Of a stretch of 53,127 nucleotides of DNA, positions 1,264 through 40,695 are shown piece after piece. Position numbers and translations under genes: made by a program. The stretch is from NCBI GenBank assembly GCA_013298545.1, contig JAAFIA010000023.1, forward strand, positions 1 through 53,127, given 5' to 3'. Numbering within the stretch: position 1 is the first letter of the stretch; each line of letters starts with the position of its first letter. The DNA is from Bacteroidota bacterium (lineage in GTDB: Bacteria; Bacteroidota; Bacteroidia; Palsa-965). Under the pieces are notes generated by a model. That model was not told the DNA's origin, searched no databases, and was given only the letters and a program-made list of their open reading frames with translations.

Positions 1264-2007
1264 ATGAAAATTTTAGTCTGCATCAGCAACGTTCCGGACA
1301 CGACTACCAAGATCGCGTTCGCCAACGATAACACCGAATTCAACAAAACCGGTGTCCAATTCATCATCAATCCTTACGACGAATGGTACGCCCTCGTGCG
1401 CGCACTTGAGCTCAAAGAAGCCAAAGGCGCGGGTAATGTAACCGTCATTCACGTTGGTGCTCCCGATAGCGAAGCCACCATCCGTAAAGCCTTGGCCATT
1501 GGTGCCGACGATGCTGTTCGGATTGATGCCGAAGCCCCCGACGCATTTTTTGTAGCCGAACAAATTGCGGCTTACGCTAAAACACAAAATTTCGACCTCA
1601 TTCTTACCGGAAAAGAAACCATCAATTACAATGGTTCGATGACGGGCGGTATGATTTCTGAACTGCTCGATCTTCCTTTTGTATCGCTGGCTAGCAAGCT
1701 CGATGTGAATGGAAATGTGGCTACGATGGAACAAGACATTGATGGTGGTTCTGCCATTGTTGAATGTGCACTTCCGCTCGTTGTTTCTTGTCAAAAAGGA
1801 ATGGCCGAAGCCCGTATTCCAAACATGCGTGGCATCATGGCAGCTCGTACCAAACCACTCACGGTTGTGCCCGTTAGCAATCCATCAACTTTAACCAGCA
1901 TTGCGTCTTACACCCTTTCTGAAGGACGTAAAGCAGTTAAACTCATCGATCCAAGCAACATGGACGAGTTGGTGAATCTTTTACACAGCGAAGCTAAAGT
2001 CATTTAA
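1264..2007 (+). CDS. etfB: Electron transfer flavoprotein subunit beta
   Basis: A 247-residue ETF beta subunit, full length for the family. It starts MKILVCISNVPDT, contains the NPYDEWYALVRALELK stretch near residue 40 and the family signature region ARIPNMRGIMAARTK near residues 182-197. ETF is a soluble heterodimer holding FAD and AMP that collects electrons from acyl-CoA dehydrogenases and passes them to ETF-ubiquinone oxidoreductase. The beta subunit binds AMP and contacts the dehydrogenase. etfA follows after 23 bases on the same strand, so the two are clearly co-transcribed. The usual E. coli-type FixAB alternative is less likely given the length and signature. Confidence 0.95.
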   Translation: MKILVCISNVPDTTTKIAFANDNTEFNKTGVQFIINPYDEWYALVRALELKEAKGAGNVTVIHVGAPDSEATIRKALAIGADDAVRIDAEAPDAFFVAEQIAAYAKTQNFDLILTGKETINYNGSMTGGMISELLDLPFVSLASKLDVNGNVATMEQDIDGGSAIVECALPLVVSCQKGMAEARIPNMRGIMAARTKPLTVVPVSNPSTLTSIASYTLSEGRKAVKLIDPSNMDELVNLLHSEAKVI

Positions 2008-2030
2008 TTCATTCAAAGCCTTTCAGAAAC

Positions 2031-3011
2031 ATGGCCGTTCTCGTATATACCGAAGGATCTAACGGAAAAATCCGTAAAAACGCACTCGAAGCCGTCAATT
2101 ACGCGGCACATATTGCCAACCAACTTGGAACAACTGTAACCGCTGTTATCGAAGCCGGACACGATGCCGCCTACGCCGAACTCGGACGCGCAGGTGCAAA
2201 AAAAGTCCTCACGCTTGCCAACGATAAATTAGCCAACGCCGACGCACATGCTTGGTCTGTTGCCCTCGCGCAAGTTGCCGAAGCCGAAAACGCTGACGTA
2301 ATTATTTTCTCGCACGACCTCGCTGCGAAAGCCATTGCGCCGCGCCTTGCTGCCCGCCTCAAAGCCGGAATCGTTGCAGGAGCCGTTGAACATCCGACCA
2401 TTGCTGGCGCACAATTCTCCGTTCGCAAAACAGCGTTCTCTGGAAAAGCAACAGCCGTTTACAACATCCTTTCCGCTAAAAAAATCATTACCCTGCTGCC
2501 CAATTCATTCCCTATTCAGCTTGGCGATGGTTCGGCAGAAATTGCAGCCGCATCCATCAACCTCGATGCTGTTTCAAACCGCATTACCCTCAAAGAAAAG
2601 AAAACACGTTCTACCGCAACGGTTGCTTTGCCAGAAGCCGATCTCGTGGTTTCTGCCGGACGCGGCATGAAAGGCCCAGAAAATTGGGGAATTGTGGAAG
2701 AACTCGCTACCACACTTGGCGCAGCGACGGCTTGCTCACGTCCCATTGCCGATATCGGCTGGCGGCCGCACCACGAACACGTTGGACAAACAGGCGTTGC
2801 CATTCGTCCTAACTTATACATCGCTATTGGTATTTCTGGTGCTATCCAACATTTGGCTGGTGTCAACGGAAGCAAGACCATTGTGGTCATCAACAGCGAT
2901 CCCGAAGCACCATTCTTCAAGTCGGCCGATTATGGCGTGGTTGGAAATGCGTTCGAGATTGTTCCGCGTTTGAACGAGGCCTTGAAAAAATTTAAAGCCG
3001 CTCAACACTAA
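2031..3011 (+). CDS. etfA: Electron transfer flavoprotein subunit alpha
   Basis: A 326-residue ETF alpha subunit. The N-terminal half is the nucleotide-alpha-hydrolase-like domain; the C-terminal half is the FAD-binding domain, recognisable from LVVSAGRGMKGPENW (about residue 205), GQTGVAIRPNLYIAIGISG and IQHLAGVNGSKTIVVIN, and ADYGVVGN near the end. These residues line the isoalloxazine and ADP parts of FAD. It pairs with EtfB directly upstream to form the electron carrier of fatty-acid and amino-acid oxidation. The base composition is slightly richer in C at third positions than the flanking genes, as expected for highly expressed genes. Confidence 0.95.
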   Translation: MAVLVYTEGSNGKIRKNALEAVNYAAHIANQLGTTVTAVIEAGHDAAYAELGRAGAKKVLTLANDKLANADAHAWSVALAQVAEAENADVIIFSHDLAAKAIAPRLAARLKAGIVAGAVEHPTIAGAQFSVRKTAFSGKATAVYNILSAKKIITLLPNSFPIQLGDGSAEIAAASINLDAVSNRITLKEKKTRSTATVALPEADLVVSAGRGMKGPENWGIVEELATTLGAATACSRPIADIGWRPHHEHVGQTGVAIRPNLYIAIGISGAIQHLAGVNGSKTIVVINSDPEAPFFKSADYGVVGNAFEIVPRLNEALKKFKAAQH

Positions 3012-3073
3012 TTGCGGGGAATACTTATCTTTAGATTCACCGAACAACACCTACCGATCCTTTGAGCGGCGAT

Positions 3074-3703
3074 ATGAAGAAAATAAAACTGGAGATTGTC
3101 GGCCTGTCGTATAGCCAGACACAATCTGGTGCGTATGCACTTGTGCTTGGCGAAGCAAAAGGCCAACGTCGTCTGCCCATCATTATTGGTGGCTTCGAGG
3201 CACAAGCCATTGCCATTGAGTTGGAAAAAATGACGCCCAGCCGTCCGCTCACGCACGACCTTTTCCGAAGTTTTGCCGAAGCATTCAGTATTGTGGTTGA
3301 AGAAGTGGTGATTTACAATTTACTCGAAGGCATTTTTTATGCCCGTTTGGTTTGCGACGACGGCATTCGCAAATTAGAAATAGATGCTCGTACTTCCGAT
3401 GCCATTGCATTGGCTGTGCGTTTTGAATGTCCAATCTACACGTATGAGTCCATTCTGGCTACGGCTGGAATTATTCTGGACGATGAGGCCGTTAGCAAAG
3501 ATTCCGACATCGAATCCGATTTGCCCGAAGTAAGTGTCGAAGATTTGACCTTGAGTGATGACGCAACTTCTGTGGGTCAGTCAGAGTATTCTCGCAAATC
3601 AGTTAAAGAACTCGAAGAAATGCTCAACAAAGCCTTACAAGAAGAAAATTACGAAAAAGCTTCCCGCATTCGCGATGAATTGAATCACCGCAAGGCTGAA
3701 TAA
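3074..3703 (+). CDS. Bifunctional nuclease (BFN) domain protein with C-terminal UVR motif
   Basis: A 209-residue protein. Residues 1-140 form the BFN/DUF151 domain (GLSYSQTQSGAYALVLGEA, LPIIIGGFEAQAIAIELE, DARTSDAIALAVR); members in plants and Thermotoga have been linked to nuclease activity, but the bacterial role is poorly defined. The last ~35 residues (VKELEEMLNKALQEENYEKA, then SRIRDEL) are a UVR motif, the helical hairpin through which UvrB and UvrC interact, also present in ClpC/McsA. The ATG at 3074 is preferred over TTG 3062. It lies 62 bases after etfA and ends at a strong terminator, so it is probably the last gene of the etf transcript. Confidence 0.85.
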   Translation: MKKIKLEIVGLSYSQTQSGAYALVLGEAKGQRRLPIIIGGFEAQAIAIELEKMTPSRPLTHDLFRSFAEAFSIVVEEVVIYNLLEGIFYARLVCDDGIRKLEIDARTSDAIALAVRFECPIYTYESILATAGIILDDEAVSKDSDIESDLPEVSVEDLTLSDDATSVGQSEYSRKSVKELEEMLNKALQEENYEKASRIRDELNHRKAE

Positions 3704-3721
3704 GCAACAACACATTTTTTT

Positions 3722-3768
3722 CTCCCGACAAAAAAGTTATGTAAATAACCGGATTGTCGGGAGTTTTT
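3722..3768 (+). terminator. Rho-independent terminator of the etfBA-BFN operon
   Basis: CTCCCGACA (3722-3730) pairs perfectly with TGTCGGGAG (3755-3763), followed by TTTTTAT. The loop is 24 bases and A/T-rich. Confidence 0.8.
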
Positions 3769-3903
3769 ATTTCTACACAATCTCGATGCTACATATTGCT
3801 CCATAGGATTTTTACTCATTGGTGTTCGGAACTTACATGTCATCCCAAAAATGTGAGGCTATCAGCGGTTTTCAGCCCGATAAAAAAAGTGGTAAACTCA
3901 TCA

Positions 3904-4041
3904 GCGTTTGCAACGCGGATGCACGAGAAGCGTTAGCCCAAGGCTAATAACGCGCATTGCATTAAATCTTCTTTAAATCTTTCAATAATTCTTATTTCGC
4001 GTTGCAAACGCGAATCTCGGCCCAACGCGTTGCAAACGCGT
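3904..4041. repeat. Cluster of CGCGTT-gca-AACGCG hairpin repeats
   Basis: Three related inverted repeats: 3904-3916 (GCGTT-tgc-AACGC), 3996-4014 (TTCGCGTT-gca-AACGCGAA, perfect 8-bp arms) and 4025-4041 (ACGCGTT-gca-AACGCGT, perfect 7-bp arms). Between them 3930-3953 can fold through TTAGCC/GGCTAA. The same words recur in the spacer at 46177-46226, so this is a dispersed intergenic repeat family rather than a local accident. Confidence 0.7.
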
Positions 4042-4161
4042 AGGAGTATCAACTCATTTAATAATATGTATTTCAGATAACTAATATTCCGAACAGTAAT
4101 GATTTTTACTCCTTCGGGAACAGGAACAATTTAATGGGTTGAATTTTAATACAGGTATATG

Positions 4162-4185
4162 CCGCAGGATTTCTAAATCCTACGG
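4162..4185. repeat. Second inverted repeat type in the same spacer
   Basis: CCG-c-AGGATTT-ct-AAATCCT-a-CGG: 10 paired bases with one internal mismatch and a two-base loop. There is no T-run, so it is not an ordinary terminator. Confidence 0.5.
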
Positions 4186-4266
4186 AACACGTGATTTTTG
4201 TTTTGAGTGTTTTAAACACGCACGAGTTGCCACCGCAAGTTGTTTTTTATTTCTATGTAATCTTAG

Positions 4267-4274
4267 TAGCTTTG
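4267..4274 (+). promoter_or_regulatory. Candidate -7 box for the permease gene
   Basis: TAGCTTTG matches TAnnTTTG, 27 bases before the ATG at 4301. TTTT occupies the expected -33 position (4244-4247). Confidence 0.5.
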
Positions 4275-4300
4275 AAACTTAACAAAGAGATAAGGTAGCT

Positions 4301-5557
4301 ATGAATATCAAAATTCGTTTGACCGTAATGAGTTTCCTGCAATTTTTTGTGTGGGGTGCGTGGCTTATTACCATTGCCAATTATTGGTTTGCAACAAAAG
4401 GGTGGGGCGGTGCGGAGTTTGGTGCTATTTTCACAACGCTAGGTCTTTCTTCTTTGTTTATGCCAACCATCACGGGCATCATTGCCGACCGTTGGATCAA
4501 TGCCGAACGCTTGTATGGTGTTTTGCATTTGCTGGGCGGTGTAGCACTCGCCTACATTCCGCAAGTGAATGATCCCGGTACATTTTTCTGGGTGTTTTTT
4601 GCGGCGATGATTTGTTATATGCCCACCATTTCGCTTTCTAATTCGGTTGCTTACAGCATTCTGAAATCTAATAATTACGATGTGATCAAAGTATTTCCGC
4701 CCATTCGTGTTTGGGGAACTATTGGTTTTATTGTGGCCATGTGGGTAACCAATTTGACAGAGAATAAAGCAACGGCTTCGCAATTTTACATTGCTGCTAT
4801 TGCTGCATTTGTGTTGGCTGTTTATTCGTTTACATTGCCAGCCTCTCCACCACAAAATAAAAACACCGAAAAAAAAACGCTCATCGAAACGCTTGGTTTC
4901 GATTCGTTCAAGTTGTTTCTCGATTATAAAATGGCGCTCTTTTTTATTTTTTCGATGATGCTTGGTGCGGCCTTGCAATTGACGAATATGTACGGCGATG
5001 TGTTTCTTTCCGACTTTAGTAAATTTCCCGAATACGCCGAATCAATTGTGGTTAAACGTTCCACGATCATCATGTCTATTTCGCAGATTTCGGAAACACT
5101 GTTCATTCTTGCCATTCCGTTTTTCTTAAAACGTTTTGGCATTAAAAAAGTCATGGTCATTTCGATGCTTGCTTGGGTATTGCGCTTCGGACTGTTTGCA
5201 TTTGGCAATCCGGCCGATGGTTTGTGGATGATTATTGCATCGTGCATTGTTTATGGTATGGCGTTTGACTTTTTCAATATCTCTGGATCATTGTTTGTTG
5301 AAACCACAACCGATTCCAAAATCCGAGCAAGTGCGCAAGGTTTGTTTATGATGATGACGAATGGTTTCGGTGCGGTGTTCGGAAGCTTTGCAAGTGGCTA
5401 CCTCATTCAAAATTATTTTGTTCAGGAGAATGGCATGAACGACTGGCGTGGCATCTGGATCACGTTTGCGCTTTACGCATTGGTAGTGGCAGTTTTGTTT
5501 GCGCTTATGTTTAAACATAAACATGATCCGAAGGATATTGCGGAAGTGAAACATTGA
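4301..5557 (+). CDS. Nucleoside permease-like MFS transporter (NHS family)
   Basis: A 418-residue integral membrane protein with about twelve hydrophobic segments. The N-terminus MNIKIRLTVMSFLQFFVWGA followed by WLITIANYWF is characteristic of the nucleoside:H+ symporter family (NupG/XapB relatives), as is GIIADRWINAERLYGVLHLL in the first cytoplasmic loop region. These inner-membrane carriers take up nucleosides with protons; the exact substrate cannot be read from sequence. A TAnnTTTG box lies just upstream. The following DUF1877 frame is open across its stop codon but probably starts later. Confidence 0.85.
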   Translation: MNIKIRLTVMSFLQFFVWGAWLITIANYWFATKGWGGAEFGAIFTTLGLSSLFMPTITGIIADRWINAERLYGVLHLLGGVALAYIPQVNDPGTFFWVFFAAMICYMPTISLSNSVAYSILKSNNYDVIKVFPPIRVWGTIGFIVAMWVTNLTENKATASQFYIAAIAAFVLAVYSFTLPASPPQNKNTEKKTLIETLGFDSFKLFLDYKMALFFIFSMMLGAALQLTNMYGDVFLSDFSKFPEYAESIVVKRSTIIMSISQISETLFILAIPFFLKRFGIKKVMVISMLAWVLRFGLFAFGNPADGLWMIIASCIVYGMAFDFFNISGSLFVETTTDSKIRASAQGLFMMMTNGFGAVFGSFASGYLIQNYFVQENGMNDWRGIWITFALYALVVAVLFALMFKHKHDPKDIAEVKH

Positions 5558-32688: not shown

Positions 32689-33342
32689 CTAAACACCCTG
32701 TACGCGTTGCAATACAGACTCCATTTCGCTAAACATCATTGCCGTTGCGCCCCATAGCAATCTCCCTTCAATCCGATAGCCTGGCGCATCTAAAAACTGA
32801 TTTTTACCAACCGCAATACGTTCTATCGTTTTAATTTCCTCCTTCAGAAAATACTGCAAAGGAATATCAAAAATTTGTTCAACTTCTGCGTCTTGTTTGA
32901 TGTAGTTTGGTCGCTGCGCAAGAACCGCTACAAACGGATGCACCAAAAAATTACTAACTGGAATATAGACCGGAGTTAGTTTTCCAGCAAGATGTTCAGT
33001 TTTCAAAAGAATACCAACTTCTTCTTGTGTTTCGCGAATCGCTGTTTGTTCGATGGTGCCATCAATTTCTTCGTATCGCCCCCCCGGGAGCGCCAATTGA
33101 CCACTGTGCACACCATCGTATGTTGGGCGTAAAATGAGCGAAGTGTGAATTTCACCCGCATGAAAAAATAAGGGCAACACGACTGCACTTTGCTTGTGAT
33201 CTGGACGTTTTTCTAACCACTCTTCGGTTGGAATCCGCGAACGTGCAGTCATGCGATTTTGTGCAGACGCGCCCGGAAGTTCTTCCGAAAGTGCCTGACG
33301 AAGTTTGCTGAAAAATAAATCCGGTGTTGTAAAAATACTCAT
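32689..33342 (-). CDS. NUDIX hydrolase, CoA-pyrophosphatase type
   Basis: 217 residues. The NUDIX box runs from GGRYEEIDGTIEQ to AIRETQEEVGI (about residues 86-110); the preceding strand RPTYDGVHSGQLALPGG and the downstream FLVHPFVAVLA are typical of the NudL/CoAse group, which splits CoA into 3',5'-ADP and phosphopantetheine. The exact substrate is inferred. The start overlaps the end of the M23 peptidase gene as ATGA, so it is the last gene of the envelope operon although its function looks metabolic. Confidence 0.87.
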   Translation of the reverse strand: MSIFTTPDLFFSKLRQALSEELPGASAQNRMTARSRIPTEEWLEKRPDHKQSAVVLPLFFHAGEIHTSLILRPTYDGVHSGQLALPGGRYEEIDGTIEQTAIRETQEEVGILLKTEHLAGKLTPVYIPVSNFLVHPFVAVLAQRPNYIKQDAEVEQIFDIPLQYFLKEEIKTIERIAVGKNQFLDAPGYRIEGRLLWGATAMMFSEMESVLQRVQGV

Positions 33343-34337
33343 CGCGAAGCCGTAATTTCTGGAGGCTGAATCCTAACCGCTTGGCCTTTGCGTAGCCGAA
33401 TCGAACTCGTCCAACCATTCCACATTTTTAAATCGCGCAAGGCAATGCCATACCGTTGAGCAATTTTCGACGGCGTATCGCCACGCACAACATAATGATA
33501 AACAATATTTTCTGGACGCACACCATAGCCTTGCTTGTTGCGAATCAAGCGTACTTGAAAAGTGAGTAGCGTTCGATTTTCCAAATCAATGAAAAATTCA
33601 GGATTGATGGCAACACCCCGAAAACGAACTTCAAAATGCAAATGCGTTCCCGTCGAATGCCCCGTCGATCCGCCCAAACCAAGTAACTGACCCGAAATCA
33701 CAATATCGCCCGGCTTTACGTTGATCTTCCACAAATGTGCATACACCGTTTCCAAACCATTGTAATGCCGAACAATCACCACATTGCCAAAGCCACCCGA
33801 ACGCCCCGCAAAACGAACCATGCCTGTAAATGCCGCATGCACACTATCGCCCCGATTCAAATCAATATCAATGCCGCGATGAAATGCCGAATCGCGCCAA
33901 CCATAGCGCGATGTTACCAATCCAGGGAAAGGAAAATAAAAATCACCACTAATCGTTGGCGAGAGATCTAAATGCGTTGCCGTATCTGATTTGTACAACG
34001 AATCCGAATACGGAAAAATATGTTGCGTATCCCAAACGCCATAAAACCGATTGCCCGGATAAAGCGAAAAACCACCCGCAAACTGATTCTTGGGCGAAAG
34101 TGCATGTAACGCATCAGCCCGCAAACGAATAAACGCAAACAAATCGGGATCGGCATTCGGTGCATCAAAAAGCGAATCGAGCAACAGATTTAATTCCGGT
34201 TCGCTCATATCTTCAATAGACGCACGAAATGAATCTAAGCGCAACAGCGTGTCTTCTTCCAACGCATAAACATTGGAATGAACCAACAAACAAAAAAAGA
34301 CCAGCACCATTGCGGCGCGCCGGAATATGTTTTCCAT
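33339..34337 (-). CDS. M23 family metallopeptidase with C-terminal LysM domain
   Basis: 332 residues with signal peptide (residues ~1-25, ending NVYALEE). The LytM/M23 domain has the zinc-binding HRGIDIDL (His...Asp) and the downstream HLHFEV with the paired His; between them are the expected YAHL and GSTGHSTGTH. The C-terminus is a LysM module (HYVVRGDTPSKIAQRYGI). The ligands look complete, so it is probably an active peptidoglycan endopeptidase rather than an EnvC-like activator. Fits with the D-Ala-D-Ala ligase upstream in the same operon. Confidence 0.9.
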   Translation of the reverse strand: MENIFRRAAMVLVFFCLLVHSNVYALEEDTLLRLDSFRASIEDMSEPELNLLLDSLFDAPNADPDLFAFIRLRADALHALSPKNQFAGGFSLYPGNRFYGVWDTQHIFPYSDSLYKSDTATHLDLSPTISGDFYFPFPGLVTSRYGWRDSAFHRGIDIDLNRGDSVHAAFTGMVRFAGRSGGFGNVVIVRHYNGLETVYAHLWKINVKPGDIVISGQLLGLGGSTGHSTGTHLHFEVRFRGVAINPEFFIDLENRTLLTFQVRLIRNKQGYGVRPENIVYHYVVRGDTPSKIAQRYGIALRDLKMWNGWTSSIRLRKGQAVRIQPPEITASR

Positions 34338-34395
34338 GAACTGCGTGTGTGTCGTTCGGGGAAAACGAAGATAATCAGAAAATTGAAATGTTTAT

Positions 34396-36312
34396 CTAGC
34401 GCGCAATTACCATACGTTTGGTGCTCATCAACCCAGTTTCCAGATCCGTGAAGCGAATCAAATAAACGCCTTCTGCAAGTCCGCTCACATCGATAGTTGA
34501 TGTATCAACTAATTTTTCCGAAAGCACCTCGCGACCAGAAATTTCATAAATCGTATAGCCAACTGAGCGGTCTGTTGCAATACGCACAAGATCCGTTACC
34601 GGATTTGGATATAAATTAACTTCTGGCCCTTGTGTCGGTTCCGCAATTCCTGAAACATCGTACAAATCGCCAAACACCGGACGCATCATCAACGAGCCAT
34701 AAAAAGAAGACGTTAGCCAAGAACCATTTGTATTGTAATAAATTTCTGAAGCATGATTGGTGTTGAAATCCATACCAATGTACAAGCGATCCGGCGCAAG
34801 CTGAACCCAGCCAATGTAATACGTTCCATTCAACACAACCAAACCACTATCAATCGTGTACGTTACAAACCGATTAGGGCCTTCAATCATGTAATTAGGC
34901 GTTTCTCCCGCTTGTTGGTAGATGATAGAACCCGGACGGTTGTTTGCTGCATCATGCGACCATACCGTCAATCGGAATTCGCGCAAATCCACATTCGGTA
35001 AATCTAAAACGGGTAAAAAATACATTTGAATCGCACGTAAAGTATCGGTTACCGATGGCGCCATTGTAAACTTATACGCAAGCTGCGAGTACTGTCCCAG
35101 CAAGCCATACCCAACTTCTGCCGAACCATCATCGTAAGCATAATAGTTGTACATTTTTTGACGGTACGAAACAACTTGTGTATCGGAATTACTCTGTTTC
35201 AAATAATGGCGCACTTCAAAATAACCACTATCGCCACTGATTCCGGGGTAGGAAAATGGTGAAACCGCAGGACTGGCAATGGCAGAAACCGGACAGTAAC
35301 CCGTTCCAACATAAGGTGCTAAATTGGGATCAACAGCGTTTGGATAGCTATACAACAAACTCAAACTAGAATCAAAAACTTTATATGTGTACGTGATGTT
35401 ACTCGCCGCAATTTCGTTGTTGCGAATGGCAATCGGAAAATTCGTGGCCATCATCGACGGTTGAAAATGCGATGCCGGAACAGAATGGTAATTGGCAAGC
35501 AGCGAAGGCGCATCATATACAAACCATTGCCAACGCGAAACCGTATCGTTCATGGTGCGTTGTTTATTCAAATACACATCGTCTAAATGCCAATGATCGT
35601 TGCTACCACAAGTAGAAGCAATATTGCGAAACCGGAATCGGAAACCATTCACAAAATAATCGGGATCATCCATTTTCAACATCACCAAATTGAAATTGGT
35701 ATCGTTTGATGATGGATTAAATCCTTGCGAAAACCAAATTGTTCGCCATCCTTCTACATTGTTCACATTCCACGACGGTACATGAAATTCGAGCACAAAA
35801 GAATCGAGTGGGTTGGGGAAATAACCACGCCCTTCGGCTTGATACCAAAAACTCAAATACAACGAATCTGAAATCTGATTGCCACTCAAATCAATTGCCA
35901 AAGAAGTCAATTCATCGGCACGACCACTTTGATTTACGTTAGAACTCGGCGTATAGGGATAACCATTCCAGCCCAAACCATCAAACGTTGCGATGCCCAA
36001 ATTGACAGGAGCAATCGCCCAGCCACGGTTGATGAATGTACCACCAACACCATAATTCTCGTCCCATAAACTGGTATCCGGTGTATGTGAATCGTACGTG
36101 AAATTATCACGCAGTCCTTTTGGACTAGGGATGGTGATGGTATCGCTGATACTAGCAGCCGAACGTTGCATGCCACGCGCACGTGCATACTCCGCTTGAA
36201 CGGCGTTGATTTGCAAAGGCACGGTTACTTCGCCTGAATTTTGCGCATGCAGACGCGTTGTTAAACCAACAAATAAAAAAAGGCAATAGCGAAACAGGGA
36301 AGAGAATTTCAT
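34396..36312 (-). CDS. T9SS cargo protein, large secreted beta-rich
   Basis: 638 residues. Signal peptide MKFSSLFRYCLFLFVGLTT and cleavage near LHAQN. An early region (DNFTYDSHTPDTSLWDENYG) and paired strands with NHWHLDDVYL near residue 240 resemble the jelly-roll/choice-of-anchor type modules of Bacteroidota cell-surface proteins. The last ~80 residues are a type A sorting domain (NLYPNPVTDLVRIATDRSV, then GLAEGVYLIRF and KRMVIAR). It starts 2 bases after the PASTA gene stop. Ligand and enzymatic activity unknown. Confidence 0.85.
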   Translation of the reverse strand: MKFSSLFRYCLFLFVGLTTRLHAQNSGEVTVPLQINAVQAEYARARGMQRSAASISDTITIPSPKGLRDNFTYDSHTPDTSLWDENYGVGGTFINRGWAIAPVNLGIATFDGLGWNGYPYTPSSNVNQSGRADELTSLAIDLSGNQISDSLYLSFWYQAEGRGYFPNPLDSFVLEFHVPSWNVNNVEGWRTIWFSQGFNPSSNDTNFNLVMLKMDDPDYFVNGFRFRFRNIASTCGSNDHWHLDDVYLNKQRTMNDTVSRWQWFVYDAPSLLANYHSVPASHFQPSMMATNFPIAIRNNEIAASNITYTYKVFDSSLSLLYSYPNAVDPNLAPYVGTGYCPVSAIASPAVSPFSYPGISGDSGYFEVRHYLKQSNSDTQVVSYRQKMYNYYAYDDGSAEVGYGLLGQYSQLAYKFTMAPSVTDTLRAIQMYFLPVLDLPNVDLREFRLTVWSHDAANNRPGSIIYQQAGETPNYMIEGPNRFVTYTIDSGLVVLNGTYYIGWVQLAPDRLYIGMDFNTNHASEIYYNTNGSWLTSSFYGSLMMRPVFGDLYDVSGIAEPTQGPEVNLYPNPVTDLVRIATDRSVGYTIYEISGREVLSEKLVDTSTIDVSGLAEGVYLIRFTDLETGLMSTKRMVIAR

Positions 36313-36314
36313 GC

Positions 36315-37133
36315 TTAATCAGGGTCTTTAGAATCAGTAGTATCTTTTTGTGCGCTCAGTTTAGCACGGTCGTTAGTCAGAAAAAGATCAACTGTTGCGC
36401 CACGCACCAAACGTTTGCCCGGGCCAGATTCCGGCGATTGGTTATAAATCAATGCGGCCAACGTATCGCTCACACCTTTATCCGTAACGAGTACCCATTC
36501 CAAACCTAAATCAACAAGTTTGCCACGCGCTGCACGAAACGTTAATCCATGCAAATCGGGAACAGCCATGCCATCGCCACTTTCGCCAGCACCTTTGCCA
36601 ATGAGAATGGTAATTTTTGAACCTTTCGGAATCATCGTTCCAGGCTCAATGCGTTTACCATTCATCCGTTGTTCAACAACACAACCATTACAAATATCAT
36701 TGGTCATTTGCGACGCATACTCTAAACCATAACTTTCGCAAACCGCAATGGCTTGGCGAAGCGATAAATCTTCGAGTTTCGGCATCGCAATTTTGGGCGG
36801 TACCAGTGCGGTAACGTAGAGGTAAATTTTACGTCCTTTTTTTACCATTGTTCCTTCTTCAGGATCTTGGCGAATGACAACTCCTTTTGGCTTTTTAGCA
36901 TCCCAAAGCGAGTCGATGATTTCATAACTCACTTCTTTGTCCTCAATGAATGCATCGAGGTTGCTAGTTTTTAAGTCCAAGAACTTAGGAACCGGATGTG
37001 TATCACCGTGGCGGGTGTACGAACTCATCCACGTAAAAATGAGCCAAAAGATGAGAACCAAACTAGCAAGCGCAATCGCTAGATTGATCCAAAGGCTACG
37101 TGTTTTGAAAAAGGAAAGCAGATTATGTAACAT
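36315..37133 (-). CDS. PASTA domain membrane protein
   Basis: 272 residues from ATG 37133 (MLHNLLSFFKTRSLWINLAI). A short cytoplasmic head and one transmembrane helix (residues ~16-36) put the rest in the periplasm. Three PASTA modules follow, recognisable by VPKFLDLKTSNLDAFIE, MPKLEDLSLRQAIAVCESYG and VPDLHGLTFRAARGKLVDLG, each ending in a V/I-x-Q-x-P or similar turn. PASTA domains bind peptidoglycan stem peptides or muropeptides. There is no kinase or PBP domain attached. It directly follows the Ddl gene (4-base gap), consistent with a wall-associated job. Confidence 0.87.
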   Translation of the reverse strand: MLHNLLSFFKTRSLWINLAIALASLVLIFWLIFTWMSSYTRHGDTHPVPKFLDLKTSNLDAFIEDKEVSYEIIDSLWDAKKPKGVVIRQDPEEGTMVKKGRKIYLYVTALVPPKIAMPKLEDLSLRQAIAVCESYGLEYASQMTNDICNGCVVEQRMNGKRIEPGTMIPKGSKITILIGKGAGESGDGMAVPDLHGLTFRAARGKLVDLGLEWVLVTDKGVSDTLAALIYNQSPESGPGKRLVRGATVDLFLTNDRAKLSAQKDTTDSKDPD

Positions 37134-37137
37134 AATA

Positions 37138-39858
37138 TTAACGCGCCGCCCCCACAGCATTAGTCGATCGCTGTTTTTTAGCGAAAGCAAATTCAAGGAT
37201 GCGGTCAATAAATTCATACGGTTTGTACTGATCCAATGCGGCTTGGTGGAAAATACACGTGGCCGGAGTCATGCCGGGTAATGAGTTTACTTCAACAAAA
37301 ATGGTTTCAACCGAAAGCGGCGAATTGTAAATTCGTACAAACGCATCAATTCGGGTATAGCCATTGATACCGAGAAGACGGGCGGCCTTGCCCAACGTTG
37401 CCTTTACGTCATCAGAAATTTGCTGACGTTGTTTCGCATCCTGCGCATAGCGCGCTGGTGTAATGTTTTGGCCTTGTCCGGCAAGAAATTTTTCTTCCAA
37501 CGATAACACTTCACCTTCCGAAAGGGCTTCCGACGCTTCAAAAACCTGATAACTCACATTCCCATCGGCATCGTAATGCGTGAGCATACCGCCTGTAACT
37601 TCCAAGAAATGATCGGCATCGCGTTTTGAAATCAACTCTTCAATCAGGAAAACAGGCTTGAGCGGAAATTCTTCTTTGGCTTTGATTTTTAGTGTTGCCG
37701 CTGCTTGCGCATCGAGTGCTTCTTCTTTTCGGAAAATGAGTTGCACAAAGGCTTCCAATTCAGCCATTGTTTTAATTTTCCGAACAGCCGAACTGCAACC
37801 GTCATCCACCGGTTTGGCAATAAACGGCCAGTGAATTTTGACTTCGATTTGTTGCAAAATATCCGCTTTGCGTGTCGTCCAATCGGCTTCGGAAACAAGC
37901 AAATGCTCCGCCACTAAAAAACCGTTCTCGCGCAAAATCTCGTTGGTGCGAAATTTATCAATGGTGATTTCAGAACTTGCTTTATCCGAACCGTTGTAAG
38001 GCAAACCGATGGCTTCCAGTTTTTCCTGAATGGCGCCATCTTCGCCCGGACGGCCATGCAAGGCAATAAACACCACATCGCATAACTGCGCCAAATCGGA
38101 ATACGAAATGCGGCGTGGTGCTGCAAGCGCTTGCGCCGAAGCATACGTGTGTGTGATGGTTGAGCAAGAATCAATAATCTGCTGAACAACCGGATGCACA
38201 TGCCAATGGTCAATTTTTTCTTTGATGTCATCGGCATTGTCTTTCAACAAGGCATTGATTGGAATCTGATACAACTGATGGTCGTCCGAATTTCCAGTCA
38301 GAAAAATTGGAACAGGTGCATACTTCGACGACGATGCTAATTTCTCGTAAATATTGCGACCACTTTCGACCGAAATATGACGTTCCGAAGAATAACCGCC
38401 AAGAACAACAGCAACACGTGTTTTGGTATCGCTTTGCTGACGCGCTTGGTGCATGGCCGCATCGAGTTGTGATAACAACAAATCGTAGCGGCCACCAAAT
38501 TTATCGGCGCGAATACGTTGCTGAATCGACGTGCGCAAAATAAACGTCAAAAACTGCGACGGATTAAGTCCAATTTCGGCTGCTTGATGAAAGAAAAAAG
38601 AAGAGGGCATCATGCCCGAAGTCGTATTCGGATCGTTTAGGAAAATTTTTCCTTCATCCGTAATAAATCCATCAATGCGGGCATACACATCGAAACGCAA
38701 TGCAACAAACAAGCGCTCGCATTCTTGGCGAATGGCTTGAATGGTGGCATCGGGCAATTCGATGGGTGTAATTTTTCGGGAGAGACCCGGTAAGTATTTT
38801 GAGCGGTAATCAAAGAGTTCTTTGCCTTTTCTGATTTCGGTGGGCGGAAGCGCAACAGGCAAGCCATTTTCATCTTGTACAACAATGCATGAAAATTCTT
38901 TTCCAGCAATAAAACCTTCCACCAAAACTTCGCTTTCAGCATCGCGCGAAGCCAGCAAAACAGCTTGTTGCGAATGATTGAAATGAGCTGTCAAGGCTGC
39001 TTGCAAAGCATCGGGATGATATATTGTTTGTTCGGCACTACCATCGGAAGTGAATACAAGTGGCAGGCCAATGCCTTCACGAATATCGGTAAGTGTGCGT
39101 ACTAAATTGGTTTGATCTGCCGCCGAAAGCCCTGTCCACGCAGCATGGGTGAGCGTACGCGTAAAAAAACTTTTATTGACTGCTTCGCAAAAAGCGGCTT
39201 CCGAATCTTGATGTAAAATCGAAATACCAATAGACGAACCTTGCGTTGCAGCTTTCACCACCAAAGGGAAACCAATCTCTGCTTTTGCGCGAGTATAACC
39301 CGCTTGCTGATTCGTAAACCAGTGAGTACGATCAATTGTTAGGAATTTTGGCGAAGCAAAACCAGCATTGACCATCAGTTTTTTCTGAACAGCTTTGTCA
39401 ATGCCAATCGCTGAAGGTAGTAGCCCGCTTCCAGAATAAGGAATGCCGAGGTATTCGAGCAAGCCTTGAATGCGGCCATCTTCGCCGTATGGGCCATGCA
39501 AACATAGAAATGCAAAATCCATGATGGAGCGCATATCATCTGTTGCTAAGACCTTGCCTATTTGCGAAGCCATAGCCACTTGCAATGCAGCATCTGGATT
39601 TAAACTTTCAGCATAAATCTGAAAATCGCCTGCTGAATGTGGAACGCGGTCGAGTGGGGGATAGAAGTCGCGGATGCTTCCTTTGTAAACATATTCCCAA
39701 TCGAGGAGGATAAAACGCCCGAAACTATCAACAAAAACAGGAATAGCCTCAAATAGCGATTTATCTAGATTATCGTAAACCGTGCGTCCGCCAGCGAATG
39801 ATATTTCACGCTCTTTGGAAACGCCGCCAAAAAAGATTCCTACGCGGATTTTAGTCAT
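37138..39858 (-). CDS. Double-length D-alanine--D-alanine ligase (two fused ATP-grasp Ddl modules)
   Basis: 906 residues from ATG 39858; ordinary Ddl has ~310-370. Module 1 (1-475): GGVSKERE 11-18, LHGPYGEDG 120-128, VVKAATQGSSIG 200-211, omega-loop DYRSKYLPG 350-358, YARIDGF 392-398, and the Mg-binding segment is DPNTTSGMM 409-417 in place of the usual E-x-N-x-x-PGMT. Module 2 (480-906): GGYSSER 487-493, LHGRPGEDG 600-608, YTRIDAF 834-840 and a canonical EVNSLPGMT 856-864, but the ATP loop reads DDGCSSAVRK and no DYxxKY is present. Each half thus lacks something the other has. It makes D-Ala-D-Ala for peptidoglycan precursors; PASTA and M23 genes follow in the operon. An upstream ATG at 39897 is possible. 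Confidence 0.87.
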   Translation of the reverse strand: MTKIRVGIFFGGVSKEREISFAGGRTVYDNLDKSLFEAIPVFVDSFGRFILLDWEYVYKGSIRDFYPPLDRVPHSAGDFQIYAESLNPDAALQVAMASQIGKVLATDDMRSIMDFAFLCLHGPYGEDGRIQGLLEYLGIPYSGSGLLPSAIGIDKAVQKKLMVNAGFASPKFLTIDRTHWFTNQQAGYTRAKAEIGFPLVVKAATQGSSIGISILHQDSEAAFCEAVNKSFFTRTLTHAAWTGLSAADQTNLVRTLTDIREGIGLPLVFTSDGSAEQTIYHPDALQAALTAHFNHSQQAVLLASRDAESEVLVEGFIAGKEFSCIVVQDENGLPVALPPTEIRKGKELFDYRSKYLPGLSRKITPIELPDATIQAIRQECERLFVALRFDVYARIDGFITDEGKIFLNDPNTTSGMMPSSFFFHQAAEIGLNPSQFLTFILRTSIQQRIRADKFGGRYDLLLSQLDAAMHQARQQSDTKTRVAVVLGGYSSERHISVESGRNIYEKLASSSKYAPVPIFLTGNSDDHQLYQIPINALLKDNADDIKEKIDHWHVHPVVQQIIDSCSTITHTYASAQALAAPRRISYSDLAQLCDVVFIALHGRPGEDGAIQEKLEAIGLPYNGSDKASSEITIDKFRTNEILRENGFLVAEHLLVSEADWTTRKADILQQIEVKIHWPFIAKPVDDGCSSAVRKIKTMAELEAFVQLIFRKEEALDAQAAATLKIKAKEEFPLKPVFLIEELISKRDADHFLEVTGGMLTHYDADGNVSYQVFEASEALSEGEVLSLEEKFLAGQGQNITPARYAQDAKQRQQISDDVKATLGKAARLLGINGYTRIDAFVRIYNSPLSVETIFVEVNSLPGMTPATCIFHQAALDQYKPYEFIDRILEFAFAKKQRSTNAVGAAR

Positions 39859-39872: not shown

Positions 39873-39928
39873 ACGATTTGAGCCATTTATGAAGCATGGG
39901 AGAACCTGCTTTTTGAGTGCTTTATGGG

Positions 39929-40042: not shown

Positions 40043-40091
40043 TATAATAAGTTGATCTCAAAAAAGATTGCTAACTTGTTATTCCTTTTTC

Positions 40092-40313
40092 ATGGAAACA
40101 ACCGTAACTGTAGAAATAATTAAAGCACTTCTCAATCTCTCGGAGAGAAAACAAAATCGCGTACTTGCATTTATCAATGACCTCTCGCAAGAAAAATCAT
40201 ACTCAGGCAAAGAATTAAAAAAATATGCTGGTTCGTTTTCGAAGAACGACGTTCAAGAAATGAAAAAAGCAATTGAAACTGGTTGCGAGAATATTGATCG
40301 TAATGAGTGGTAA
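40092..40313 (+). CDS. VapB-type antitoxin (DUF2281-like)
   Basis: 73 residues from ATG 40092 (METTVTVEIIKALLNLS). Helical N-terminus, then SERKQNRVLAFINDLS, and a tail KKYAGSFSKNDVQEMKKAIE-TGCENIDRNEW that resembles the toxin-wrapping C-terminus of antitoxins paired with VapC in Bacteroidota. It overlaps the toxin frame by 11 bases (toxin ATG 40303), the usual arrangement for coupled translation. The antitoxin frame is intact while the toxin frame is not. Confidence 0.75.
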   Translation: METTVTVEIIKALLNLSERKQNRVLAFINDLSQEKSYSGKELKKYAGSFSKNDVQEMKKAIETGCENIDRNEW

Positions 40314-40695
40314 CGCGATTTTGCTTGATACTAATTTCGTAATTGCGCTATTTTCTGGAGAAAAAGCCGCCGTTTAAAAAATTGATTTGTACGATAACGT
40401 ATTTCTTTCCACAACCATTGCTGGTGAATTGTATTACGGTGCCGAAAACTCATCACGCAAGAAAGATAATATTCGAAGAATAGATCATTTTGTTGAAGAT
40501 TGCCTTGTTTTGCCCATTGATATTGATACGGCTAAAAAATATGCTGTAATAAAAGCAAAACTCAAAATCATTGGAAAACCAATACCTGAAAATGATATTT
40601 GGATTGCCGCAATTTCGCTACAATATAATTTGCCGATCGCTACTCGTGATCAACATTTCAACGTAATTGATGACATAAAGCTAGTTACTTGGTAA
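40303..40695 (+). pseudogene. vapC: VapC-type PIN-domain toxin interrupted by an in-frame stop
   Basis: The 130-residue PIN-domain frame runs from ATG 40303 to the stop at 40695, but codon 25 is TAA (40375-40377). Both sides read as VapC in the same frame: MSGNAILLDTNFVIALFSG before it, and STTIAGELYYGAENS, KPIPENDIWIAAISLQYNL and ATRDQHF after it. The four acidic residues of the RNase site are present on the two sides (Asp9; Glu in GELYYG; Asp in ENDIW; Asp in TRDQ). Restart at TTG 40387 would lose Asp9. A CAA-to-TAA change would explain it. Probably an inactive toxin unless the stop is read through or is a sequencing error. Confidence 0.85.

Follow-up and report, generated by a model that had tools for sequence, protein, structure and literature searches.

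D-Ala-D-Ala ligase (Ddl) is an essential enzyme and the target of D-cycloserine, and its product is the target of vancomycin. Among ATP-grasp enzymes more widely, CarB of carbamoyl phosphate synthetase joins two ATP-grasp halves whose roles differ, and the substitution E270D (DdlB numbering is used here for equivalent sites) reduces activity in some ATP-grasp contexts. With reference to the published studies, it can be seen that Ddl enzymes are dimers in crystals (PMC6899670), that Phe versus Tyr at the site of DdlB residue 216 sets depsipeptide (D-Ala-D-Lac) versus dipeptide activity in lactic acid bacteria (PMC5996685), and that E. coli DdlB with the substitutions Y216F and S150A gained weak D-Ala-D-Lac activity (PMC7691350). 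An allosteric inhibitor site was also reported for the Ddl of S. aureus (PDB 2i80/2i87). No description of a tandem Ddl was found in the open-access literature, and the fusion family presented here, which databases label simply Ddl, is large, conserved and apparently undescribed.

In this study, a window of 53,127 nucleotides, meaning the whole stretch of DNA analysed, was investigated from the genome of a Bacteroidota bacterium. An open reading frame on the minus strand, running from an ATG at 39858 to a stop codon at 37138-37140, encodes 906 residues; an alternative in-frame start, the ATG at 39897, would lengthen this to 919 aa, and the start at 39858 was favoured because the homologue alignments begin at residue 1-4. 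Pfam detected two PF01820 N domains, together with a Dala_Dala_lig_C domain in each half, and frame and domains therefore confirm what the first-pass annotation had claimed, namely two complete Ddl modules in one 906-residue chain. The fused gene (37138..39858, supported by the frame, Pfam and homologues; all its parts below are likewise on the minus strand) consists of half 1, a Ddl module of residues 1-450 (38509..39858), a poorly conserved linker of residues 451-477 that is mostly helical in the AF2 model (38428..38508), and half 2, residues 478-906 (37141..38427), with a full Ddl fold according to alignment, AF2 and fold matches. The AF2 model of the whole chain, obtained with 51 sequences, reached a pLDDT of 87.8 and a pTM of 0.88, consistent with the two halves being held in one fixed arrangement. 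Both halves match Ddl structures along their whole length: the half 1 model matched, for example, 3e5n with Z 36.4 over residues 2-454, and the nominal top match of the half 2 model was 1ehi, the D-Ala-D-Lac ligase of Leuconostoc (Z 38.7), tied with ordinary Ddl, so that the modelled fold of half 2 does not discriminate its substrate class. Half 1 missed all the NCBIfam Ddl cut-offs (225.8 against 262, 223.4 against 245.65 and 220.1 against 243), as did half 2 (149.4 against 243), and the whole chain passes such cut-offs because the two half scores add. The Van-type NCBIfam cut-offs were missed by both halves, with best scores of 154.9 for half 1 (VanG) and 107.9 for half 2 against 495.

The possibility, raised by the first-pass annotation, of a separate ordinary ddl elsewhere came to nothing in the window's genome, which is 97% complete. 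Its other PF07478 matches were named by sequence as two biotin-carboxylase-like proteins, one CphA-like protein and PurK, so that a separate ddl was ruled out and the fusion is the only Ddl of this genome. The gene of the CphA-like (cyanophycin synthetase) protein lies at G000:C75:5495-8740 (L007). A search with PF01820, the Ddl-specific N domain, covered 51 genomes, comprising 48 fusion carriers and three with a shortened form, family f91; no separate ddl was found in the 48 fusion genomes, each of which gave exactly two matches, those listed lying within the fused frame. MurF, the consumer of the Ddl product, was present in all eight genomes checked, the window's included. Two MurF genes were recorded in the window's genome (G000:C46:44307-45539 and G000:C78:34277-35554), one standing alone and the other within a longer frame of 838 aa, probably MurF-Alr. 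A tie between this pair and the fusion was ruled out, as the same pair also accompanies single Ddl. Nor did the genomes reveal a downstream partner for such a second product, stand-alone MurF and MurF-Alr occurring both with and without the fusion.

The fusion is widely distributed among the Bacteroidia. Among 396 Bacteroidia genomes drawn evenly, each at least 90% complete, matches were observed in 164 genomes and in 83 of the 198 genera, four of the 164 being of the shortened f91 form, and 21 of 38 near relatives carry the fusion, some of them split at contig ends. Named isolates with the fusion include Hymenobacter properus, Rufibacter roseus and Adhaeribacter soli, of the family Hymenobacteraceae. 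Outside the Bacteroidia, no match at fusion strength was found among the sampled genomes, which show single Ddl. In trees where the fusions alone were sampled, half 1 formed one clade and half 2 formed one clade, and this is consistent with a single old fusion event. The stem of half 2 is long, at 2.9-3.1 changes per site in trees without the lactic acid bacterial Ddl. Tandem duplication and the fusion of two different ddl are both candidates for the origin of half 2: the identity between N- and C-terminal halves is 25%, no higher than to single Ddl, and the long branches meet in the trees; an F/Y-HQ motif after S281, common to both halves and not seen in single Ddl, favours their common descent, though it may be convergent. 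Among the homologues, one (L083, 4001-6712) has a stop codon inside its frame, and a Hymenobacter relative (L185/L194, G302) carries a repeat-like in-frame insertion, EHQALSTKHQAPST, in half 1 directly ahead of the LNDPNTT motif.

With regard to the surroundings of the locus, a PASTA-domain gene with a transmembrane helix was found downstream of ddl (36315..37217, minus strand; PF03793 in three stretches). Its frame from the first ATG overlaps the end of ddl, and it probably starts at MLHNLL instead. Within the same class, such a PASTA gene was found beside six of eight loci with a single-module ddl and, in flanks reaching up to 4 kb, beside 34 of the 75 fusion loci read; since it accompanies both fused and single ddl, the fusion looks like an occupant of the ancestral ddl locus. 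No Van-like gene setting was seen near the fused gene. In the co-oriented run after ddl (window 32689-37217, minus), the PASTA gene is followed by genes for a secreted protein carrying a type IX sorting tail, for an M23/LysM peptidase and for a NUDIX protein, and on the other side ddl is adjoined by a plus-strand pair (40068-40695) of an 81 aa protein without Pfam match and a PIN-domain protein, which looks like a VapBC-type toxin-antitoxin pair. In one other genome (L181, G429, 1447-5046, plus), the double Ddl is fused via a transmembrane segment to the PASTA protein in a chain of 1200 aa, as read from its sequence a membrane-tethered Ddl-Ddl-PASTA protein, the PASTA protein being elsewhere a separate neighbour.

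During the residue survey, 95-114 fusions per position (with one or two rows gapped at some) were compared with 32 single-module Ddl in a MAFFT alignment, the fusions, up to 114 in number, diverging to about 42% identity. Both halves keep E15, H63, E68, K97, E180, E187, K215, R255, D257, N272 and G276 in every row read at these columns, and K144 in all rows but one, which has Arg in half 1. The two halves nevertheless do not align normally at all catalytic residues: the substitutions are real, and the 32 single Ddl carry the canonical residues at the substituted sites, Y216 and S150 being 100% conserved there. Different residues are invariant in each half across the fusions aligned, which bears out the proposal of complementary, fixed substitutions in two asymmetric modules, and on this alignment such half-specific substitutions are non-random and far from chance. 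Constraint on half 2 matches or slightly exceeds that on half 1, the mean pairwise identity being 60.5% for half 2 and 58.4% for half 1 (correlation r 0.94).

Half 1 retains the complete substrate pocket. Its residues E16, S208, Y355 and S420 correspond to DdlB E15, S150, Y216 and S281, and this triad of E15-S150-Y216 plus S281 reads E, S, Y, S in every fusion covered. The omega-loop motif DYRSKY (38794..38811) supplies K354 and Y355, the equivalents of K215 and Y216, and an insertion of residues 216-305 (38944..39213), placed by the alignments after the serine loop and ahead of the VLVEGFI strand, is missing from short Ddl and found in f91 too. The first-pass annotation had quoted DYRSKYLPG and DPNTTSGMM correctly, but the apparent loss in the latter motif (38608..38634) comes down to E270D, P275S and T278M with N272 kept. 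Asp was observed at the E270 position in 112 of the 112 fusions read at that column, and Ser at the P275 position in every fusion read. Of the Mg ligands, D257 and N272 are thus kept and E270 is replaced; E270D is a conservative change, and an Asp can bind Mg.

The changes of half 2 are of another kind. The first-pass annotation's motifs were again found as quoted, namely the canonical metal motif EVNSLPGMT (37267..37293), which is followed by T867 (S281T), a changed DGCSSA loop and the absence of DYxxKY; the omega-loop Lys is, however, retained, as K790 (DdlB K215) adjoins Phe791 (Y216) in the motif SLEEKF (37486..37503; Y210L, Y212L and Y216F, with F in 114 of 114). What had been called a changed ATP loop is a real change, but mainly one of S150C and G153A in DDGCSSAV (37783..37806; C in 114 of 114), S150 being part of the substrate triad and of the serine loop. 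S150C, Y210L, Y212L, Y216F and S281T are fixed in every fusion read as compared with the 32 single Ddl, the last being conservative, and the triad reads E, C, F, so that the canonical one is absent and the Phe beside the conserved Lys presents the signature of Phe-type depsipeptide ligases. K97, K144, E180, E187, K215, R255, D257, E270, N272 and G276, which cover the ATP, Mg and oxyanion functions, are kept in half 2 in every row read. A loss of E187, suggested by a hand alignment that placed His750 there, was rejected, as MAFFT of the 95-114 fusions places a conserved Glu at the site, probably E753. Because the changes of half 2 hit the pocket and spare the catalytic machinery, they are unlike decay.

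Family f91 provides a natural deletion. It was found in four genomes (L190-L193) of three genera, 6.4-8.0 Mb in size, and its proteins of about 550-560 residues, of the same length in the four genomes and ending in HITERYV or close to it, consist of half 1 with Asp at 270 and a degenerate half 2 remnant of about 70 residues without catalytic residues. The remnant corresponds to residues 500-572 of our chain (38143..38361) and is predicted to be folded (pLDDT about 95). In the three f91 genomes tested, a single PF01820 match each was obtained and no other. The family nests within the half 1 tree of the fusions as sister to Hymenobacteraceae (98/91), and the catalytic part of half 2 was therefore lost secondarily. 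Since f91 keeps half 1 with Asp as its sole Ddl, half 1 is very likely a working D-Ala-D-Ala ligase and the Asp no fatal defect. Talk of defects in the halves is hence not upheld, half 2 also retaining all its Mg, ATP and oxyanion residues, and of the proposed obligate asymmetric dimer, the asymmetric modules in one chain stand while half 2 is not required in every case. The f91 loop that follows the Asp is back to PGM(S) as in ordinary Ddl, with P275 regained and a shift toward T278/L282 (S and L), from which we infer that the two halves of the fusion are coupled; its half 1 may accordingly need half 2.

Taken together, we tentatively read the tandem Ddl as a covalent asymmetric pseudo-dimer serving as the cell's only Ddl. 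Half 1, with its full D-Ala pocket and Asp as Mg ligand, is very likely the maker of D-Ala-D-Ala. Half 2 is possibly a working ATP-grasp ligase too, which by analogy with Phe-type Ddl would take an acceptor different from D-Ala, a D-hydroxy acid or another D-amino acid being the most plausible, and the halves presumably pack in a single fixed arrangement by way of the N-terminal portion of half 2. We favour such a second ligase with altered specificity, at modest confidence, because half 2 keeps the ATP, Mg and oxyanion residues and changes sites 150 and 216, with a depsipeptide-type Phe. The suggestion that one half has a different substrate or a regulatory role therefore remains live given the fixed pocket changes, and the regulatory version, in which half 2 is a pseudo-ligase that binds ATP, and perhaps also D-Ala or D-Ala-D-Ala, but does not ligate and instead stabilises half 1 or regulates it, is nearly as likely as the second ligase, though itself somewhat doubtful. 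S150C, Y216F and the lost omega-loop aromatics could abolish ligation, and some of the changes are not known to be shared by Phe-type Ddl (S150C, G153A, Y210L, Y212L, S281T), so the ATP site could serve sensing; f91 retains only a non-catalytic, folded, scaffold-like part of half 2, its half 1 reversion points to coupled halves, and the allosteric inhibitor site reported for S. aureus Ddl (PDB 2i80/2i87) offers a parallel. Against this, the Mg and oxyanion residues of half 2 are invariant, including K215, R255 and G276, which serve catalysis only, and half 2 is conserved no less well than half 1.

That both halves make D-Ala-D-Ala, with substitutions that are neutral or mutually compensating and a fusion that merely fixes the known dimer (PMC6899670), is improbable: the full fold of both halves and the conservative nature of E270D and S281T agree with it, but different invariant residues per half across many families argue for different jobs, and the complete conservation of Y216 and S150 in single Ddl speaks against neutrality. 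A division of labour within one reaction, one half activating the substrate for the other as in carbamoyl phosphate synthetase, has the precedent of CarB, but it is very improbable given that f91 manages without the catalytic part of half 2. That the fusion is a decaying duplicate, or an artefact of sequencing or assembly, is refuted: the frame runs unbroken over its full length in well over a hundred independent genomes, among them the Hymenobacter, Rufibacter and Adhaeribacter isolates, and both halves are under strong constraint.

Returning to the asymmetric pseudo-dimer with a second ligase, it seems that much of the Bacteroidia relies for the Ddl step on a fused and asymmetric double enzyme alone. 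It is conceivable, though we hold it to be rather unlikely, that in many Bacteroidia a second ligase inside the essential cell-wall enzyme forms a dipeptide or depsipeptide different from D-Ala-D-Ala, and that part of the peptidoglycan precursors, or another product of the cell, ends differently; such a Ddl would be a two-product housekeeping enzyme of Gram-negative bacteria. Should half 2 prove active, the chemistry of the precursors in these bacteria would have been assumed rather than known. The fusion is also a natural test of the determinants of dipeptide versus depsipeptide specificity and a natural Asp-for-Glu metal site, and f91 a natural deletion separating the roles of the halves.

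Comparatively, the fusion shares with ordinary Ddl (DdlA/DdlB) the fold, the domain order, the standing as the genome's only Ddl, and E15, H63, E68, K97, K144, K215, R255, D257, N272 and G276 in both halves, and it differs in having two modules per chain, Asp for E270 in half 1, large insertions, and C/F/T for S150/Y216/S281 in half 2. With the Phe-type D-Ala-D-Lac ligase LmDdl2 (1ehi, F261), half 2 has in common the Lys-Phe at the K215-Y216 site, whereas the identity is low (22%), the pocket carries extra changes and LmDdl2 is a single module. The VanA/VanC/VanG-type ligases (D-Ala-D-Lac, D-Ala-D-Ser) belong to the same superfamily, but both halves fall far below their curated cut-offs. MurC-Ddl (NCBIfam NF011171) is likewise a cell-wall ligase fusion, against whose cut-off of 1015 our chain scores 178, and CarB likewise joins two unlike ATP-grasp halves in one chain; unlike either, a Ddl is here fused to a diverged Ddl. 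Judged from its sequence, the fusion would work like a Ddl and is, strictly, a variant of that enzyme.
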